From: Candidatus Anaerobutyricum avicola
GTDB taxonomy: Bacteria; Bacillota; Clostridia; Lachnospirales; Lachnospiraceae
Length of the DNA: 45,585 bases
Assembly: GCA_019113845.1 (NCBI GenBank)
Contig: DXGQ01000045.1
Location: 1 to 45,585 of the forward strand
Direction of reading: 5' to 3'
Positions 1-32,791 of the stretch are shown here, piece after piece (the stretch's first letter is position 1; every line of letters starts with the position of its first letter). A program made the position numbers and the translations under genes. The notes beneath the pieces were generated by a model. It searched no databases, had not been told where the DNA came from, and saw only the letters and a list, made by a program, of their open reading frames with translations.

Positions 1-225
1 AAGACTTGTGGAAGGCAGGGAGCAGGATTGGAAAAGGGATGGCTCCCGTGCTTGCACGAAGGAGCAGACCTTTTTAATCCTGTAAAGCGTAGCTGAAACC
101 GCTTTGCGGTTTCTCCCTGCCAATCAGAAAACGTCAGTAGTCCGAGTGAGGGTCGAGTCGGGAGGAACTGTATGGAAACGAATGGCATCGTCTGTTATAT
201 GAGAAACCTGTTGTCACCTTTACAA
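1..225. repeat. Dispersed structured inverted-repeat element, copy A (left end cut off)
   Basis: This is the right part of an element found several times in the window. From about 14 to 112 it can fold as a branched core: GGCAGGGA pairs with TCCCTGCC; GGATT plus AAAAGG pairs with CCTTTTTAATCC; GCTCC/GGAGC encloses GTGCTTGCAC; and GAAACCGC-TTT-GCGGTTTC is a separate hairpin. It is followed by the conserved GTGAGGGTCGAGTCGGGAGG stretch and an outer arm ending in CTTTACAA (218-225). The arm from 140 on is nearly identical to copy C (8578-8818). The stop codon of the MATE gene lies in the terminal repeat. The left half lies outside the window. Confidence 0.75.
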
Positions 226-6618: not shown

Positions 6619-6634
6619 AAATCCTTCGTACTTA

Positions 6635-6722
6635 TATCCCTACGTTGGCATTATCCAAATCAGGTAAAGGGTCGAGACGATTCAGTCTCCTCTCAGCCTG
6701 CTTGATACGCAAGCTCCCCGTT
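6635..6722 (-). promoter_or_regulatory. TPP (THI-element) riboswitch aptamer
   Basis: The minus strand contains the conserved TPP aptamer blocks in order: GGGGAGC, GGCTGAGAGGAG, CGACCCTTTACCTGAT, TGGATAATGCCAACGTAGGGA. Its position upstream of thiM and directly before an intrinsic terminator indicates transcriptional control of thiM-thiE-HAD-thiD-cytX by thiamine diphosphate. Confidence 0.96.
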
Positions 6723-6753
6723 TTCAATTGTGTAAGAATCCTTACATTTATCT

Positions 6754-8278: not shown

Positions 8279-8323
8279 TAAAACGAGAGAGTTTTCTCGC
8301 TCAAAATGGGGATTTATCGCGGT

Positions 8324-8516
8324 GATAAGAAAGATAACCTGTAACACAGACGATGACGCTGGAGCACAGACAGTTTCTCCTGCTCGGCCCTCACTCAGAC
8401 GGAACGACAGGCTCAGCTATGCGGGGAATATGACCGTCCTCGCTCACAGCTCGCAGTCGAAGTCTGTCTGTGTCCGGAACGTCATCTGTGCTGTGTAAAA
8501 TTATCTGTTTCTTATC
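8324..8516. repeat. Dispersed structured inverted-repeat element, copy B
   Basis: 193 bases bounded by GATAAG and CTTATC. The arms GATAAGAAAGATAA…ACAGACGATGACG and CGTCAT…TTATCTGTTTCTTATC are imperfect inverted repeats, followed inward by CACAGACAG / CTGTCTGTG. The shared GCCCTCACTC and GCTCACAGCTCGC motifs show the element is in the opposite orientation to copies A, C and D. The interior is a short unique sequence without the branched core. Together with copy C it fills the intergenic space 8152-8787. Confidence 0.75.
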
Positions 8517-8577
8517 CCCTCGACAAAACAATTATCTATGTCTATAGCCTGCTGTTTTGCCAACATACACAGGATTC

Positions 8578-8818
8578 TTGTAAAGATGAAACAGATTTTC
8601 CCCATATACAGATGCCATTTGAAGTGCATACAGTTTCCGACCGCGAGCTGTGAGGGAGGGCTGGCTAAGACTTGGAGAAAGCAGTGAGAAATCGCAAGGT
8701 GATTTCTCACTGTTGATCAGAAAATGTCAGTAGCCCGAGTGAGGGTCGAGTCGGGAGGAACTGTATGAGAACAAATGGCATCGTCTGTTATATGAGAAGT
8801 CTGTTATCACCTTTACAA
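8578..8818. repeat. Dispersed structured inverted-repeat element, copy C (complete)
   Basis: 241 bases with terminal inverted repeats of about 50 bases: TTGTAAAGATGAAACAGA…ATGCCATTTG on the left and its imperfect complement ending CTTTACAA on the right. Inside are ATACAGTT / AACTGTAT, GCGAGCTGTGAGGGAGGG, a simple hairpin CAGTGAGAAATC-GCAAGGT-GATTTCTCACTG (8682-8712), and GTGAGGGTCGAGTCGGGAGG. The right half matches copy A almost base for base. The right arm contains the last codons and stop of the neighbouring gene at 8788. Confidence 0.8.
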
Positions 8819-9141
8819 CTCCCCACTGTCACTTCTTCCGGCGCTTCCACCTCATTTGCAATGGTATGCTCGGTCAGTTCTGACAGCAGGCGGATTTTCT
8901 GGTTGAGCATCGGTCGCAGGCAGTTTGGCACATGTTCCTGATGCGCCCGGTGGATGGCGACACATTCCTTGCAGTTGCCGTGATAGCGGCAGGCTTTTTT
9001 GCAGGGACAGTGGTCTTTTTCTTTGTACTCTTCCCGAAAGGCGGAGGCGAATTCTTCCTGGATTCGCAGACCTTCTTTCCGGTTTCCTCTGTGAAATTCC
9101 TTCATGGCAGCTTTTTCAATTTCATTTCCGTCAATGATCAT
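8788..9141 (-). CDS. Small Cys-rich protein, possible metal binding
   Basis: A 117-residue protein of unknown function. A cysteine and histidine cluster in the middle (CPCKKACRYHGNCKECVAIH, then PNCLRP) is of a type common in small clostridial proteins and could bind zinc or an Fe-S cluster. The N-terminal 40 residues are charged and helical. The start at 9141 is supported by AGGAGG; longer starts lack an RBS. The last ten residues (GSCKGDNRLL) and the stop codon are encoded by the terminal repeat of element C, so the original C-terminus seems to have been replaced. It is divergent from the AraC regulator at 9328. Confidence 0.75.
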   Translation of the reverse strand: MIIDGNEIEKAAMKEFHRGNRKEGLRIQEEFASAFREEYKEKDHCPCKKACRYHGNCKECVAIHRAHQEHVPNCLRPMLNQKIRLLSELTEHTIANEVEAPEEVTVGSCKGDNRLLI

Positions 9142-9245
9142 GATAGTTTCCTCCTGATATTCCATAGTGTGAGGGAAAGTCTTTGGCAACAGCCCGGCAC
9201 TTTCCCTCATCCTCTTCCCATATGTCATATTACCGTCTTTTTTCC

Positions 9246-9327: not shown

Positions 9328-10293
9328 ATGTCTTCTCCCATTTATTCTCACAATCCCCATGACGGCGGGGACTTTCCTCTTTTGGTGCTTGATGTCGCCA
9401 GCCAGGTATGTACACCTTCTAATGAAGGGTTCCGGGTACTCCACTGGCATGAGGAAGTACAGTTTATTTTCGTTTTGCAGGGCGTCATTCACACACAAGT
9501 TTACGATGAAGGCCTTGATCTGTGCGCCGGGGAGTGTCTGTTTATCAATCGGATGGTTCCCCACAAAACGACGGAAAAGGAAGATTGTCGGTATCACAGT
9601 TTTCTTATTCCGGAGCGGATGCTCAGCTTTTTTCCAGGCAGTATCATGGAAAAACGGGATGTCCATGCCATTCTCTATCATCCGGGCTTTACACATTTTC
9701 TGTTAAAGGAAGAAAATCATGCCGCTGTGCTTCGGGCTGTCCGCGCTCTGGATGACCGGTATTTCGCTTTCGACTCCCAATCGGCTTCCGCCCGGCAAGG
9801 CAGTGTTTCCGGAAAATGTACAGACGCCCCCTCTTCTCCCATAAAAAAAGAACCACGCCGGGAATACGCCCTGAGCGTGGCTTTAGTCTCTCTCTGGCAG
9901 GAATTTCTTGATGTGCTGCCGGAGCTGCCGGCCAATGCGCCCACGAGAGAGTATGCGCGCATTCGCGAAATGCTTTCCTTCCTTCACACATATTATAAGG
10001 AAGAAATATCTGTCACGGAGATCGCCGCGGCCGCTCACATCAGCAAGACTGAGTGCCTGCGCTGCTTTCACAGATTCGTGGGCGAACCGCCGTATCAATA
10101 TCTCATCAAATATCGTCTGCACATGAGTACGGCACTTTTAACAGACACGAACCATCCTGTCACACAGATTGCGTCTGACACCGGCTTTGCCTCTGCCAGC
10201 ACTTATATCCGCTACTTCCGAAAATGGTACGGCTGCACACCGGGGGAATACCGGAGAACGCATGCAACAGGCAACTTTACGCAGCACAGATGA
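9328..10293 (+). CDS. AraC-family transcriptional regulator
   Basis: A 321-residue cytoplasmic regulator. The N-terminal 110 residues form an AraC-type cupin sensor (HWHEEVQFIFVLQG, then GECLFINRMVPHKT). The C-terminal 100 residues carry two helix-turn-helix motifs, ISVTEIAAAAHISKTECLRC and PVTQIASDTGFASASTYIR, ending YFRKWYGCTPGEYRR. A linker (about 150-185) is polar and variable. RBS AAAGGAG precedes the ATG. It converges on the MATE gene at 10358 and is divergent from the Cys-rich gene. Its last residues (about NFTQHR) and stop TGA fall inside repeat element F. The target is unknown; neighbouring efflux genes are candidates. Confidence 0.92.
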   Translation: MSSPIYSHNPHDGGDFPLLVLDVASQVCTPSNEGFRVLHWHEEVQFIFVLQGVIHTQVYDEGLDLCAGECLFINRMVPHKTTEKEDCRYHSFLIPERMLSFFPGSIMEKRDVHAILYHPGFTHFLLKEENHAAVLRAVRALDDRYFAFDSQSASARQGSVSGKCTDAPSSPIKKEPRREYALSVALVSLWQEFLDVLPELPANAPTREYARIREMLSFLHTYYKEEISVTEIAAAAHISKTECLRCFHRFVGEPPYQYLIKYRLHMSTALLTDTNHPVTQIASDTGFASASTYIRYFRKWYGCTPGEYRRTHATGNFTQHR

Positions 10294-10368
10294 CGTTCTG
10301 GGCACAGACAGGTTCTGGCCGCGAACTGTGAACATGTACATCCCTGTACATTTCTTATCATCTGTTGC
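10264..10368. repeat. Dispersed inverted-repeat element, copy F (internally deleted)
   Basis: Between two convergent genes. The left half (CAGCACAGATGACGTTC…CACAGACAG…CCGCGAACTGTGAA) matches copy B read in reverse. The conserved right-hand motif is missing; instead a small ATGTACA-TCCC-TGTACAT hairpin leads to TTTCTTATC, the terminal sequence of copy B. GCAACAG and CTGTTGC form the ends. Both flanking genes take their stop codon inside it (10291-10293 and 10358-10360). Confidence 0.6.
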
Positions 10369-26108: not shown

Positions 26109-26861
26109 ATGATCACTGTTTTTACCTGCGCCGATCAGTTCGACGATATGATGACCTGTGTCTACGATGCCTGGGCTTCCCGCCTGGGGCACGCCAATGT
26201 ACGGCTTTTAACGGAACCTCTGGGGACGCCGGAACTTTTCTGCACGTATCGTCATGTGGACGCACAGCCGGAGAAGGCGGCAAGCGTTGTCCGCACCATC
26301 CGCCAGAAGATTTCTTCCAGGGCGGTTCAGATGGTTTACCGGACCGCCATGGCAGAACAGGAGGAGAAGCTGGATGTCATTTACCGGTTTTTAATCCTCG
26401 GTTTTCATCTGGGAACTTCCGTGACGGATTACCTGCAGCATCCTTCTGTCATGCGCCTGTTGGAACTGGAGCGGACTGTCGCCAATGAAGCGCACTATTT
26501 TAAAGAGTTTCTTCGCTTTTCCAGTCTGGAAAACCGCGTGCTCGTCGGTCATATCGAGCCCAAAAGTAACGTGCTGACTTTACTTGCTCCGCATTTTGCA
26601 GACCGCCTTCCCTCGGAGAACTGGATGATCATCGATGACAGACGCCGTCTTGCCGTCGTCCATCCTGCAGACCGGGATTATTACCTCACACCGCTCTCTC
26701 CGGAGGAGTTTCAGACCCTTTCCAGAGAACCGGATGACACTTTCGTTCATCTCTGGAAAGGATTCTTTCATCACATCGGCATCTGCCAGCGCAGAAATTC
26801 CCGCTGTCAGCGAACCATGCTGCCTTTGTGGTACCGCAAAAACATGACGGAATTTCGGTAA
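26109..26861 (+). CDS. DUF4130-type DNA metabolism protein, partner of the radical SAM protein
   Basis: A 250-residue protein of the family that almost always sits next to the radical SAM DNA-repair protein and in other bacteria is fused to a uracil-DNA glycosylase. Family features include the FTCADQFDDMMTCVYDAWASR start, NEAHYFKEFLRFSSLENRVLV in the middle and the Arg/Lys-rich end. Here the UDG is not fused; a separate family 4 UDG is encoded at 16718. RBS AAAAGGAG. It lies 72 bases after the radical SAM gene, in one LexA-controlled operon. A role in repair of damaged DNA is inferred from context. Confidence 0.88.
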   Translation: MITVFTCADQFDDMMTCVYDAWASRLGHANVRLLTEPLGTPELFCTYRHVDAQPEKAASVVRTIRQKISSRAVQMVYRTAMAEQEEKLDVIYRFLILGFHLGTSVTDYLQHPSVMRLLELERTVANEAHYFKEFLRFSSLENRVLVGHIEPKSNVLTLLAPHFADRLPSENWMIIDDRRRLAVVHPADRDYYLTPLSPEEFQTLSREPDDTFVHLWKGFFHHIGICQRRNSRCQRTMLPLWYRKNMTEFR

Positions 26862-26868
26862 ACAGGCA

Positions 26869-26898
26869 TTGACCTTTTCCTGTGATAGGATGTATCAT
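26869..26898 (+). promoter_or_regulatory. Promoter of the alcohol/aldehyde dehydrogenase operon
   Basis: TTGACC, 18-base spacer, TATCAT, directly after the stop codon of the DUF4130-type gene. The leader contains a CCTGCG / CGCAGG hairpin (26936-26961). Confidence 0.55.
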
Positions 26899-27008
26899 CA
26901 TAACAGATATATATGACGTACATCCGGCAAAGATTCCTGCGCACGGGACATGTTCGCAGGCCGGCTTTGCGGATAAGAGATCAAAACCAGGAGAAAGGAG
27001 CAAGTATC

Positions 27009-28535
27009 ATGCATCCAGCGAGAAAAATCTACTGTCGGACTTTTCAGTCCGTACTCAAATTTGCCATTCCATTTCTGCCATACCGCCATCCGAAGATCAT
27101 CGGCAGTGTGCGGGGCATACCGGAAGTATTAAAAAAGAAAAAATGCCGCTCTGTTTTAATCGTCACCGACAAGGGTATCGCCAATCTCGGTATGCTCCGC
27201 CGGCTGAAAAAATCTCTGCGCGAGAATCATATCACCTATGTCATCTACGATAAAACTGTCGCAAATCCTACGACAGTCAATGTTTATGAGGCGGCAGCGC
27301 TTTATCATTCCGGTCACTGTTCCGCCATCATCGCTTTTGGCGGCGGCTCCAGCATCGACTGTGCCAAAGCTGTCGGCGTAAAGATTGCCCGCCCGGATAA
27401 ACCTCTGGCAAAGATGAAAGGCATTCTGAAAGTACACACAAAGCTGCCTCTTCTCATCGCCATTCCGACTACAGCCGGTACCGGCAGTGAGACAACCATC
27501 GCCGCCGTTATCACCGATGCGGAAACAAGACATAAATACACCATCAACGATTTTCCTCTGATCCCACGGTATGCGGTTCTTGACCCGGAAGTCACAGTGA
27601 GTCTCCCTCCGTTCATCACAGCCTGCACCGGCATGGACGCGCTGACCCATGCTGTGGAAGCCTACATCGGCAACTCAACCACACCGGGGACAAGGAAGAA
27701 TGCTCTCATGGCTGTCTCCCTGATCTTCAAAAACCTGGACACCGCTGTAAAAGACGGAACCAATCTGGAAGCCCGCAAAAATATGTTAAAGGCGTCCTAT
27801 TATGCCGGCTGCGCCTTTACCAAATCCTACGTGGGATACGTCCACGCTGTGGCTCATTCCCTGGGAGGAGCCTATAATATTCCTCACGGTTATGCCAATG
27901 CAGTACTTCTCCCTTATGTGCTGGATTCTTACGGAGAATGCATTCATAAAAAACTTCATGCCCTCGCCGTTGCCGCAGGTATAGCCAAGCGGGATATTCC
28001 ACATTATAAAGGGGCACGGCTGTTCATTTACGCCATCCAGAACATGAAAAAACGCTACGGCATCGGCAATACCATCGAGGAGATCCGGGAAGAAGATATT
28101 CCAAAGCTCGCACATTACGCCGACAAAGAGGCAAATCCTCTCTATCCGGTACCTGTCCTCATGAACGCGGAAGAACTGGAGAAATTCTACTACATGCTGA
28201 TGCCAAAGAAAAAACGGCAGCCGGCGCCAAAAATGGATTTCAAAGAATATGCCAGAAAAGCGGCAGCAAAAAGAGCCGCAGAAGCAGCGGCGCAGGCATC
28301 TGCCAAAGCTCCGGAGAAACCTGAAACCACAACACAGCCATCCGCCAAAACTCCGGAAAAATCTGAAACCGCGGCACAGCCATCCGACAGCGCTCCGGAA
28401 AAAGCCGGAACCACGGCACAGGCATCCGACAGGACTCCGGAAGAAGCCGGAACCACGGCACAGCCATCCGACAGCGCTCCGGAAAAATCTGAAACCGCGG
28501 AAACAGTATCCAGTGACAGCAAAACGGAGGAATAG
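27009..28535 (+). CDS. Iron-containing alcohol dehydrogenase with repetitive C-terminal tail
   Basis: A 508-residue group III alcohol dehydrogenase. The NAD(P) site is FGGGSSIDCAK and TTAGTGSE; metal ligands are expected in MDALTHAVEAY and in HAVAHSLGGAYNIPHGYANA. The enzyme interconverts an alcohol and an aldehyde; the next gene can oxidise the aldehyde. The start at 27009 has AAAGGAG upstream. The catalytic part ends near residue 395. A basic helix (KEYARKAAAKRAAEAAAQ) is followed by about 85 residues of imperfect 15-residue repeats of the form QPSDSAPEKSETAA, unusual for this family and probably disordered. Confidence 0.92.
   Translation: MHPARKIYCRTFQSVLKFAIPFLPYRHPKIIGSVRGIPEVLKKKKCRSVLIVTDKGIANLGMLRRLKKSLRENHITYVIYDKTVANPTTVNVYEAAALYHSGHCSAIIAFGGGSSIDCAKAVGVKIARPDKPLAKMKGILKVHTKLPLLIAIPTTAGTGSETTIAAVITDAETRHKYTINDFPLIPRYAVLDPEVTVSLPPFITACTGMDALTHAVEAYIGNSTTPGTRKNALMAVSLIFKNLDTAVKDGTNLEARKNMLKASYYAGCAFTKSYVGYVHAVAHSLGGAYNIPHGYANAVLLPYVLDSYGECIHKKLHALAVAAGIAKRDIPHYKGARLFIYAIQNMKKRYGIGNTIEEIREEDIPKLAHYADKEANPLYPVPVLMNAEELEKFYYMLMPKKKRQPAPKMDFKEYARKAAAKRAAEAAAQASAKAPEKPETTTQPSAKTPEKSETAAQPSDSAPEKAGTTAQASDRTPEEAGTTAQPSDSAPEKSETAETVSSDSKTEE
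28300..28510 (+). repeat. Tandem 45-base coding repeats in the ADH tail
   Basis: About four and a half imperfect copies of a 45-base unit containing GCTCCGGAAAAA and ACGGCACAGCCATCCGAC. The copies encode Ser/Pro/Glu/Thr-rich 15-residue units. Recent copies are nearly identical, so the copy number may vary between strains by slippage. Confidence 0.85.
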
Positions 28536-30499: not shown

Positions 30500-30563
30500 G
30501 TATTCTTCCTTCTTTCTCTTGTGCCATGGAAATGTACACAAATTAAACTTTTTCTAAATAAAA

Positions 30564-30704
30564 CAAACGATACCGTTCATTCTCATACAGGTCTGCCCGT
30601 CTCGACCCTCACTCGGACATCAGATAGCTGATTCTTTGTTATCTTTGATGTCCTCGCTCACAGCTCGCGTTCAGAGCCTGTATGGAATCTGAACGGTATC
30701 TGTT
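30564..30704. repeat. Dispersed structured inverted-repeat element, copy E
   Basis: Arms AACGATACCGTTC…CATACAGG and CCTGTATGG…GAACGGTATCTGTT pair imperfectly. Inside, in the orientation opposite to copies A, C and D, are CGACCCTCACTCGGAC and CGCTCACAGCTCGC. The interior is a simple hairpin, GGACATCA / TGATGTCC. With copy D it fills the interval 30500-31087. The arm sequence AACGGTATC recurs at 31051 beyond copy D, so the two copies may form one nested structure. Confidence 0.72.
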
Positions 30705-30781
30705 ATCTGTATATTAAAAAAATCATTATTTACATTCACAATTACCAGGAATATTCTGGAAAAACAGAAGCATATAATCAT

Positions 30782-31043
30782 AGCACAGAGGACATTTTGA
30801 GCCACAGACAGAATTCGACCGCGAGCTGTGAAGGAAGGATATCACACAACCTGAATAAGGCAGGAAACGGGATTGAAAAAGGGGAAACTCCTGTGCTTGC
30901 ACAAAGGAGCAGACCTTTTTCAATCCCGAAAAGCGAAGCCGGAACTGTTTACAGTTCCTTCCTGCCGTTTCTATAACTTCTTGATATCCGACTGAGGGCC
31001 GAGTCGGGCGAAACTGTCTGTGGCTTCAAGTCCTCGTCTGTAC
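30782..31043. repeat. Dispersed structured inverted-repeat element, copy D (with branched core)
   Basis: Outer arms AGCACAGAGGACATTTTGAGCCACAGACAG and CTGTCTGTGGC…GTCCTCGTCTGTAC pair (quoted in parts). The frame motifs GACCGCGAGCTGTGAA and CTGAGGGCCGAGTCGGG flank a branched core (30859-30966): GGCAGGAA/TTCCTGCC, GGGATTGAAAAAGG/CCTTTTTCAATCCC, CTCCT/AGGAG around GTGCTTGCAC, and GGAACTG-TTTA-CAGTTCC. The core matches copy A in layout with paired changes. It lies between the Hsp70 stop and the Nudix start. Confidence 0.8.
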
Positions 31044-31087
31044 GCCAACAAACGGTATCGTCTGTTTTACATCTGCAGCCCTCTCCT

Positions 31088-32791
31088 TTACTGCCCGGTC
31101 CACAGTTCTTCTTCTATCCAGTCCAGCGCTTCCTCGTAATCTTTTCGCGCTTCTGCGATCCTGTCCGGATTTTGTTTGTCAAGGATATATTCGAACTGCC
31201 TCGTCACCGCTTCCAGCTGTTCCCGGAGCTCACCTGTGGCCTCCTCATACAGTCGCTCCCCCCGGAGGAGCAGAACTTTGTTCGCTTCCTGGTCTCTGGG
31301 ATGAATCTTAAGGTACGAGAGCTCCCGCATCCTCGCCTGCATCTGCTCCAGCGTCATGTCCGTTTCCTGATTTTTGATCAGCTTCGTGACGACTTCTCCC
31401 GTTGATTTTATCTTTGCCTCCACCTCGAGGAGCGCATTAACATCATAAGTATAGGTGACAGAAATCTCTTCCTCTCCTGCCTTATTATCCGGTACCATCA
31501 GATGAATCGTTCCGAGAGAGATGTTGTTGGAGGCGAAGCGGCTCTCCCCCTGCAGGATGTGAATGTCCACCTGCGTCTGGTGGTCGTAGACAGTATAAAA
31601 CTTCTCCGTGCGGCTGGCGGGAATCACCGTATTTCTCTCAAGGATCGGACAAAAATGATTGCTTTCCAATCGGTCTCCCTCCGTCCGTATGGAGACTTCT
31701 GTCCCCAGAGTGAACGGACAGACATCCGTGAGGATCACTTCCCGGATGGACTCTCTTCTCTCCTTCATGGCTCCCTGAATGGCAGCTCCCAGCGCCACTG
31801 CCTCATCCGGATTGACACTGGTATCCGGTAGCCGGCCGAAGAGCTTGCCCACAAACTTTCGCACCGCCGGCATTTTTGTAGCGCCGCCCACCAGCACGAT
31901 CTCATCGATCTCGCTGACACGGACGCCTGCGTCTGCGAGACTGCGCCGCACCGGCTGACGGATTCTGTCAAACAGCTGTGACGCTTTTTTATCAAACTCT
32001 CTCTTTGAGAGAAGCGTTTCCAGTTTTTCTCCCTTCCATGATGCCTGCATCCGGAAAAAGGAATCCGCGCTGTTTTTGCATTTACATTTTTCCGCCTGAT
32101 TTCTGAGATACAGCCTCTCCTTTTCTGAAAGCGCAGTTTTATCTATAGAGTGGTCTTTCAGAAAGGCATCCAGAATCAACTCCGTGAAATCCTCGCCGCC
32201 CAGATAATTGTCCCCGGCCACGGCCCGCACTTCCATGATGTCATCATCCAACTCCAGGATGGATACATCAAAGGTACCTCCGCCCAGATCAAAAACAAGA
32301 AAGCGGGTGCTGTCCTTTTTCTGATACAGCCCATAGGCGATGGCCGCTGCCGTCGGCTCACTGATGATCCGCTCCACCTTAAAGCCTGCCAGTTCACCGG
32401 CGCGCTTGGTCGCCTTTCTCTTGACATCATTAAAGTACGCCGGAACGCTGATGACAGCTTCCGTCACCTCCTCGCCCAGATAATATTCCGCATCTTCCTT
32501 CAGGGAGCGCAGGACAAAAGAAGACAGCTCTTCCGCAGAAAACGTCCGTTTGCCCAGCACAAACTCCTTCCGGCTTCCCATGCTCCGCTTAAAAAGGCTG
32601 GCTCCCTCGTCCGGGTGAACCGCCATTCTCTCCAGGGCTGACCTTCCCACATATACCTGATCGTTCTCATCAATGCTCACGGCGGAGGGCGTCAGCCTCT
32701 CTCCCAGCCGATTCGGTATGATTCTGGGCCCCTCTTCCGTATAATACGCTGCCAGAGAATTGGTCGTTCCCAGGTCTATTCCAATAATCAT
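31088..32791 (-). CDS. HscC-like Hsp70 chaperone
   Basis: A 567-residue Hsp70 of the shorter HscC type, not the main DnaK. The ATPase domain has IIGIDLGTTNSLAAYY, VISVPAYFNDVKRKATKRAG, ISEPTAAAIAYGLY, VFDLGGGTFDVSI and the adenosine motif VLVGGATKMP. The interdomain linker is VILTDVCPFTLG, in place of the DnaK DVLLLD-type linker. A substrate-binding beta domain and a short helical lid follow. Start at 32791 with GGGAGG. It lies 88 bases after a giant J-domain/TPR protein, which is the likely co-chaperone, as in other HscC-J protein pairs. Clients are unknown. Confidence 0.9.
   Translation of the reverse strand: MIIGIDLGTTNSLAAYYTEEGPRIIPNRLGERLTPSAVSIDENDQVYVGRSALERMAVHPDEGASLFKRSMGSRKEFVLGKRTFSAEELSSFVLRSLKEDAEYYLGEEVTEAVISVPAYFNDVKRKATKRAGELAGFKVERIISEPTAAAIAYGLYQKKDSTRFLVFDLGGGTFDVSILELDDDIMEVRAVAGDNYLGGEDFTELILDAFLKDHSIDKTALSEKERLYLRNQAEKCKCKNSADSFFRMQASWKGEKLETLLSKREFDKKASQLFDRIRQPVRRSLADAGVRVSEIDEIVLVGGATKMPAVRKFVGKLFGRLPDTSVNPDEAVALGAAIQGAMKERRESIREVILTDVCPFTLGTEVSIRTEGDRLESNHFCPILERNTVIPASRTEKFYTVYDHQTQVDIHILQGESRFASNNISLGTIHLMVPDNKAGEEEISVTYTYDVNALLEVEAKIKSTGEVVTKLIKNQETDMTLEQMQARMRELSYLKIHPRDQEANKVLLLRGERLYEEATGELREQLEAVTRQFEYILDKQNPDRIAEARKDYEEALDWIEEELWTGQ

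Follow-up and report, generated by a model that had tools for sequence, protein, structure and literature searches.

A dispersed repeat of Candidatus Anaerobutyricum avicola arranged as divergent pairs of long hairpins, some with an insert resembling Clostridiales-1 RNA

Are the long self-complementary elements that recur in the genome of Candidatus Anaerobutyricum avicola mobile repeats, structured RNAs, or both? The question arose from a preliminary description of a stretch of 45,585 nucleotides (the window, contig 18 of the 55-contig, 2.87-Mb genome), which reported six scattered elements whose frame is fixed and whose inner hairpin can be exchanged. Using the copy at 8578-8818 as a query, blastn returned 57 matches genome-wide; these include the query, and the closest of the other copies is 89% identical. 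The covariance-model search that the description had proposed yielded further copies in five other species of the genus and, with the places of two models merged, at least 65 distinct hairpin-arm places in the 2.87-Mb genome, a lower bound because the place lists are limited to the best candidates. The sole Rfam matches at gathering score in the whole window were two tRNAs and a TPP riboswitch, none of them in an element, and a lax Rfam scan of the first composite element gave a chance snoRNA match only. The TPP riboswitch lies at 6620-6730 on the minus strand; the genes downstream of it on that strand are presumably thiamine genes, judging from their ORF translations. No title or abstract describing this repeat was found in the literature search, whose coverage left most subscription journals outside.

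The elements of the window and their parts are as follows (scores in bits are labelled R1 or R2):

1..225, plus strand: arm cut by the contig start, which keeps the branched insert (about 14-121), the second motif and the 3′ stems and has lost the first motif; R2 118 bits (1-137)
8309..8823, no strand assigned: composite element 1 (site 1), with ends GGGATTTAT... and ...ACAACTCCC around a divergent arm pair; frame common to G014, G009 and G021 at the same site
8324..8516, minus strand: left arm of composite 1, type 2 stems ATGACG/CGTCAT, short insert; fold z -6.0; R1 153 bits
8383..8393, minus strand: second core motif of the left arm, TGAGGGCCGAG (motif scan)
8443..8454, minus strand: first core motif of the left arm (motif scan)
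8578..8818, plus strand: right arm of composite 1, the copy used as the query, type 1 stems ATGCC/GGCAT, motif distance 97; fold z -10.0; R1 123 bits
8643..8654, plus strand: first core motif of the right arm, GCGAGCTGTGAG, 5′ side of the kink-turn-like loop (column conservation)
8740..8750, plus strand: second core motif of the right arm, TGAGGGTCGAG, 3′ side of the kink-turn-like loop (column conservation)
10264..10368, plus strand: truncated arm remnant, the 5′ half, in which the first motif is altered to GCGAACTGTGAA and the second motif is missing
30560..31068, no strand assigned: composite element 2 (site 2), a divergent pair with ends AAAACAAACGATACCGTT... and ...AACGGTATCGTCTGTTTT (by eye), flanked by NUDIX and Hsp70 genes (Pfam)
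30564..30704, minus strand: left arm of composite 2, type 5 stems ATACCG/CGGTAT, short insert; fold z -8.6; R1 133 bits
30782..31043, plus strand: right arm of composite 2, type 4 stems AGGAC/GTCCT, long branched insert; fold z -9.1; R2 177 bits
30859..30966, plus strand: branched insert with a GGCAGGA stem, a GUGCUUGCAC-tipped hairpin, a small hairpin and a GGAACUG hairpin, in the same helix order as the RF01699-like inserts of other copies

The folds of the four complete copies were compared with dinucleotide shuffles, and 0 of 200 reached them in each case. The remnant is 80% identical at 10266-10331 to positions 8444-8509, over 66 bases. The coordinates given for the six copies in the preliminary description are sound and its core idea is right. 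Both motifs, which it attributed to all six, are present in 8324-8516 and 30564-30704 on the minus strand and in 8578-8818 and 30782-31043 on the plus strand, and not in 1-225 and 10264-10368. The branched core, assigned there to two copies lettered A and D, is found in 1-225 and 30782-31043; the letter D does not agree with the coordinates listed, since the core sits in 30782-31043 and is absent from 10264-10368. What the description understated is the architecture, as it missed the divergent pairs and the larger outer frame (8309-8823).

The repeat unit is a divergent pair of hairpins rather than a single hairpin. Among the arm places listed, all 19 couples lying no more than 600 bases apart are in minus/plus order, and 16 of the 27 unpaired arms are near a contig end, a position in which a partner would be cut off. 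A looser motif scan of the fetched loci gave 43 minus-plus pairs, two minus-plus-plus, one minus-minus, no plus-minus and 23 single arms; some of the singles are spurious (e.g. window 26651-27027), which makes the context counts given below rough. Arms extend outward via further stems up to the frame GGGATTTGT...ACAAATCCC, which resembles a terminal inverted repeat of the pair and is equally the base of each hairpin. Divergent subfamilies with the ends ACAGACGACGG...CCGTCGTCTGT occur in G014, G010 and G002, and the genome studied here has both subfamilies.

Read from the outside in, an arm consists of the frame stem, CAGA/YGTCTG, two variable stems, a short CCG/CGG or CTG/CAG stem and a loop. 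This core loop is nearly invariant, with C-UGU-GA-NN-GA-GGAY opposite RUCC-GA-NN-GA-GGG, and its NN columns covary in the short-arm alignment (columns 62-140 with AU, GU and CG; 63-139 with GC and CG). A kink-turn is made of a C-stem, a 3-nt bulge, tandem G-A pairs and an NC-stem. At the level of sequence, the pattern C-UGU-GA.../...GA-G can be compared with this rule, and we infer a kink-turn-like loop in the core, with another tandem G-A step after it. What the GGAY/RUCC stem encloses varies, with 57-63, 75-105 or 165-181 bases between motif starts, and the exchangeable tip is a short hairpin, a deletion derivative or a branched module like Clostridiales-1 RNA. At locus L213 (C55), positions 950-2100, we noticed by eye three more units in tandem, some 430 bases long, whose motifs are like CCTCCTCCACTTC and CACAGTCGTCGGCGG; they apparently represent a further arm subtype. 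The last 250 bases of L205 (G014:C71) hold TTATCGCGATTTGA-like short tandem repeats just within the frame, reaching the contig end.

The reading that we favour, with fair confidence, is that of a family of intergenic repeats that are mobile but non-autonomous and similar to REPIN and BOX repeats. In this reading the unit, two long imperfect hairpins in divergent orientation, is kept for its folded structure and mobilised in trans, and copies exchange their interiors. Each hairpin would combine an outer stem with family-typical ends, variable self-complementary middle stems, the invariant kink-turn-like core and an exchangeable tip. An enzyme acting in trans would recognise the folded single strand and move the copies, a mechanism proposed for REPINs, and interiors would be exchanged via recombination or nested insertion between copies. 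The elements would settle mainly near gene ends, be transcribed within 3′ untranslated RNA and fold there.

That structure is kept is suggested by covariation. In 18 short arms (A1, taken from 26 representatives and thinned at 93%), 21 of 41 pairs had compensated changes, as against a mean of 8.9 in shuffled alignments, and none of the 500 shuffles reached 21; structures slid along A1 paired 32-40% of cells vs 96.5% for the true structure. In 22 of the 27 long inserts (A2, thinned at 90%) compensation was found in 20 of 38 pairs (shuffled mean 14.4, reached by 0 of 500), and the number of further pair types was not clearly above chance, being reached by 37 of 500 shuffles; in A2, too, covariation exceeded that of the slid controls. 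These counts are flattered, as the tested structures were derived from the same two alignments. The claim of the preliminary description that pairing is kept while sequence drifts thus holds across copies and species, and the predicted structure that it took for a possible RNA is supported by the covariation, the G(CUUG)C-type tip and a similarity to RF01699 below the cut-off.

Pairing is maintained between stem types, but individual copies seem to decay. Within a type, cells changed from one Watson-Crick pair to another, to GU or to AC in the numbers 7/45/34 (type 1, own genome), 9/56/49 (type 1, all), 6/84/52 (type 3) and 27/50/45 (type 2, 11 mixed arms). Compensated changes are thus few within one type, as they should be where single copies decay while the spreading lineage retains the structure.

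It is unlikely, in our view, that the arms serve chiefly as structured RNAs with a function at 3′ ends (termination, protection or regulation), with duplication incidental, a core that binds an L7Ae-type protein and an active Clostridiales-1-like tip. The inserts and core do carry motifs which we take to be typical of RNA, namely the G(CUUG)C-type tip in 24 of 27 long inserts, a small GNRA-like hairpin and the tandem G-A pairs, and the matches to RF01699 below the cut-off agree with such a role. In column pairs favoured by the folds of both strands, GU exceeded AC on the sense strand (16:7 and 15:9), which lends modest support to the view that the working RNA is the sense strand; for the long inserts, however, the pairs of the antisense fold gave an even GU:AC of 22:21. 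The within-type excess of GU over AC is small (45:34, 56:49, 84:52 and 50:45), and with few compensations most single copies look weakly constrained. A folding-energy strand test was dropped, as mononucleotide shuffles gave the same sense-strand excess in 74 of 83 arms and the excess in stability is therefore largely composition. These 83 arms are 78 less five that were too close to a contig end plus ten from G014 and G021; a subset of 39 was obtained by dropping one by name and thinning at 88% identity.

With a rough ORF caller, 19 of 69 elements lay between convergent genes, 19 between genes in the same direction and five between divergent genes, and 26 were unresolved. Elements are thus seldom between divergent genes (5 of 43 classified, with no genome-wide baseline), and many lie within a few bases of an ORF end (rough ORF calling, likewise with no genome-wide baseline), as an RNA acting at 3′ ends would. 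Against such an RNA, promoter-like sites were at chance in both composites (0 vs 1.3 and 1 vs 0.9 expected), and relatives hold other contents or nothing at the same sites. No promoters or terminators of note were seen in the composites.

The preliminary description recognised no named family. This stands for the frame, but the branched insert resembles the named Rfam family RF01699 (Clostridiales-1 RNA), below its cut-off. At lax thresholds RF01699 matched five places in seven loci with 34.8-43.4 bits (the best, 43.4, at L136) and eight places in 19 loci with 28.8-35.8 bits; such lists depend on the amount searched, as L016 scored 42.8 bits in one and had no match at E <= 0.05 in another. No arm reaches the curated gathering score of 48 bits, the window has no match at gathering, and the insert of 30782-31043 (L114) has none at E <= 0.05. 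In the covariance-model alignment the insert and RF01699 share the outer stem, the long GUGCUUGCAC-tipped hairpin and the third and fourth hairpins, and the long inserts have the four-helix junction with a GCUUGC-tipped hairpin. The tip G[TA]GCT[TC]GCAC is present in the same 24 inserts, 20 of them with exactly GTGCTTGCAC.

RF01699 itself is above cut-off in 17 of 24 genomes of the genus, this one included, where three full genuine members score 108-131 bits; nine genuine copies of the genus, inspected by eye, have no kink-turn arms. The long insert is thus like RF01699 in helix order and tip, but differs in scoring below 48 bits and in a third helix reduced to a small hairpin, and we take it to be a reduced relative, or a convergent copy, of the RF01699 module. 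Multiple copies at E <= 0.001 were counted in G005 (21, three over cut-off), G006 (20, 14 over) and G023 (12, five over). Partial tandem copies trail some of the matches (L143), among matches such as L144, L146, L152 and others. From such sequence patterns, RF01699 itself may be a dispersed repeat. In the main text of Weinberg et al. 2010 (PMC2864571), the name of Clostridiales-1 RNA appears once, in a table.

The comparison of filled and empty sites proposed in the preliminary description was run on relatives, and the two composites gave different answers. At site 2 (30512-31088) the NUDIX and Hsp70 flanks are 577 bp apart here vs 2-157 bp in nine relatives (G002, G004, G006, G007, G008, G009, G010, G014 and G021). 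A tenth relative, G005, also has the two flanks on a single contig, at a great distance from each other. No core pair is present in the nine gaps, whose resemblance to the core is limited to isolated 9-mers with one mismatch. The flanks of the relatives are about 80% identical, so junctions are unreadable to the base. The difference could, less probably, reflect loss in the nine relatives instead of gain here.

Site 1 (8309-8823), between an antiporter gene and a hypothetical gene, is not empty in relatives. Its frame, GGGATTTG(T)...ACAAATCCC-like, recurs at this position in the genome studied here (G000) and in G014, G009 and G021, and encloses different insides: the type 2/type 1 pair in G000, a different divergent pair in G009, a collapsed remnant of about 73 bases in G021 and, in G014, a G014-type arm across a contig break, joined by synteny only. 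The fixed frame with exchangeable interior described earlier is supported by these four species, the many copies and the discrete insert classes. Judging from these alignments, site 1 is an old insertion that stayed put, and the filled/empty difference is at site 2 only. By eye, we also saw an arm inside the remains of another arm, to the right of site 2 and at L217. The gaps without the pair at site 2, the shared frame with different insides at site 1 and the nested remnants point to insertion as well as to interior turnover at an old site.

Less probable again are classical MITEs, that is, deletion derivatives of a DDE-transposase element with GGGATTTGT/ACAAATCCC as terminal inverted repeats. 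The suggestion of MITE-like elements in the preliminary description fits the filled/empty difference at one site, and the repeat does share with MITEs its inverted ends, a size of about 400-900 bp, its dispersal, the absence of a recognisable gene in the six longest frames and arms within the remains of other arms. However, the inverted ends follow automatically from two divergent hairpins, and they differ by type (GGGATTTGT, ACAGACGACGG, AAAACAAACGATACC). Target-site duplications of 3-9 bases, a feature of MITEs, were not above permutation in 29 flank sets from 23 places; for lengths 3-6 the observed numbers were 12, 3, 0 and 0 of 29 vs permuted means of 11.9, 3.4, 0.4 and 0.04. A full-length parent or an autonomous copy with the same ends is absent from the fetched stretches that we read. 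Two candidates for such a copy were rejected: C55:425-2286 has further repeats inside and three frames without a Pfam match, and C21:54747-57020 contains an E1-E2 ATPase.

The elements had been described as carrying no coding frame. Open frames of 71-182 codons are in fact the longest in the 43 composites, and the six longest of these have no Pfam match; moreover, two neighbouring genes of the window terminate within elements. The hypothetical gene at 8788-9228 on the minus strand has its stop inside composite 1 (8788-8818), its protein ending in EAPEEVTVGSCKGDNRLLI (...EVTVGSCKGDNRLLI), with EAPEEITVR in G014 and ...EVTVNRDL in G009, and the ORF of an AraC-type regulator (9328-10293) terminates in the remnant copy.

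No mobilising enzyme was found in the PF01797 search of 24 genomes or in the composites of the fetched stretches. A link to RAYT/Y1 genes was rejected for this genome, as its sole PF01797 hit belongs to an ordinary TnpA/TnpB element, and no core pair lies in its vicinity. The PF01797 loci read, this one of G000 and those in G021 and G009 (L103, L105 and L113; G009 has a second, fragmentary hit), showed no core pair nearby and no RAYT gene flanked by repeats. Further hits lie in frames of 205-259 aa in G002, G013, G015, G017 and G019, of which only G002 has the repeat.

That the elements are bidirectional terminators or gene-end hairpins of old standing, which grew through recombination among dispersed copies with no transposition, would suit the frame common to four species at site 1 and the A-run/stem/T-run look of some frame ends (AAAAT...ATTTT in G014), but is highly improbable given that the genes flanking site 2 are adjacent without the element in nine relatives and that similar type 1 arms stand at many unrelated places.

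We return to mobile paired hairpins, for which several known systems offer comparison. REPINs of Pseudomonas are non-autonomous, their replicating unit being an inverted pair predicted to form hairpins and their singlets being remnants; in the GI doublet, invariant 16-mers are spaced 71 bp apart, and repeat clusters have RAYT genes next to them (PMC3116915). An inverted hairpin pair is the unit here too (19 of 19 couples minus/plus among the places listed), but the arms are 140-330 nt long and branched, with variable stems, and no Y1 gene with adjoining repeats was found at the loci read. BOX elements of Streptococcus pneumoniae have outer modules and a replaceable boxB, with tandem boxB copies, measure 67-637 bp, form a predicted RNA stem-loop and have a TIR and target duplications (PMC3049150). 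Conserved outer modules with a replaceable inner module are also seen in our alignments and insert classes, whereas the repeat differs in its two divergent hairpins, its branched insert and target duplications at chance level. CGTC-tagged REPs occur predominantly as head-to-head pairs with stems of 8-9 bp and loops of 4-5, have a tag that varies to TGTC or CCTC and have no dedicated transposase (PMC3733652). They resemble the present repeat in the head-to-head arrangement and in the CGTCTG/TGTCTG variation of the ends, though the likeness of the tag may be chance. In functional terms the repeat would work most like REPIN and BOX repeats, as a dispersed structured non-autonomous repeat. We set it apart from RAYT-linked REPINs, duplication-making MITEs and RF01699, because the defining features tested were not found for the first two and the insert scores below the cut-off of the third.

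The long-arm model found at least 56 places here, at least 33 in G009, 28 in G014, eight each in G021 and G010 and seven in G002, each again a lower bound, and two weak partial matches in G008, so that 7 of 24 genus genomes have matches. A pattern scan of an 84,980-species collection, which may omit records close to the window's own genome, returned 41 stretches, with more than one only for Eubacterium sp. An11 (G009) and Eubacteriaceae bacterium CHKCI004 (G021). With the best seven candidates taken per genome, the short-arm model had one match among 392 genomes of the order, the own genome, which is a weak negative. Among 299 genomes of the family the long-arm model matched 20, the own included, most of the matches being confined to the tip hairpin or to the central part of the model; full-length matches outside the genus were in G651 (48 bits) and G041 (26 bits). 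The match in G651 (L186) was rejected as an arm-bearing copy, since it reads as an RF01699-like element without arms. In other genomes of the family, L187, L188, L193, L195 and L196 have hairpins tipped with GTGCTTGCAC or its complement, with small GGGCGAA(A)GCCC-type hairpins after several of them; L190, L191 and L193 reach the RF01699 cut-off, and the others of that set do not.

Tentatively, and with more doubt than belief, Clostridiales-1 RNA may not be a stand-alone RNA at all, but the hallmark module of mobile structure-dependent repeats found throughout the Lachnospiraceae; the form in this genus would be the most elaborate of them, two-armed, with the module enclosed in each arm by a kink-turn-bearing hairpin, and its folded strand (RNA or single-stranded DNA) would be recognised by the mobilising machinery. 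The repeats may explain breaks in the assembly, as 16 of the 27 unpaired arms among the places listed are near a contig end. The family gives a setting to RF01699, which has been in Rfam since 2010 without a function. Long-range pairing is moreover preserved by dozens of copies across discrete sequence types, which amounts to a natural experiment, and if the structure is needed for spread, these types and their compensations would reveal the parts read by the machinery.
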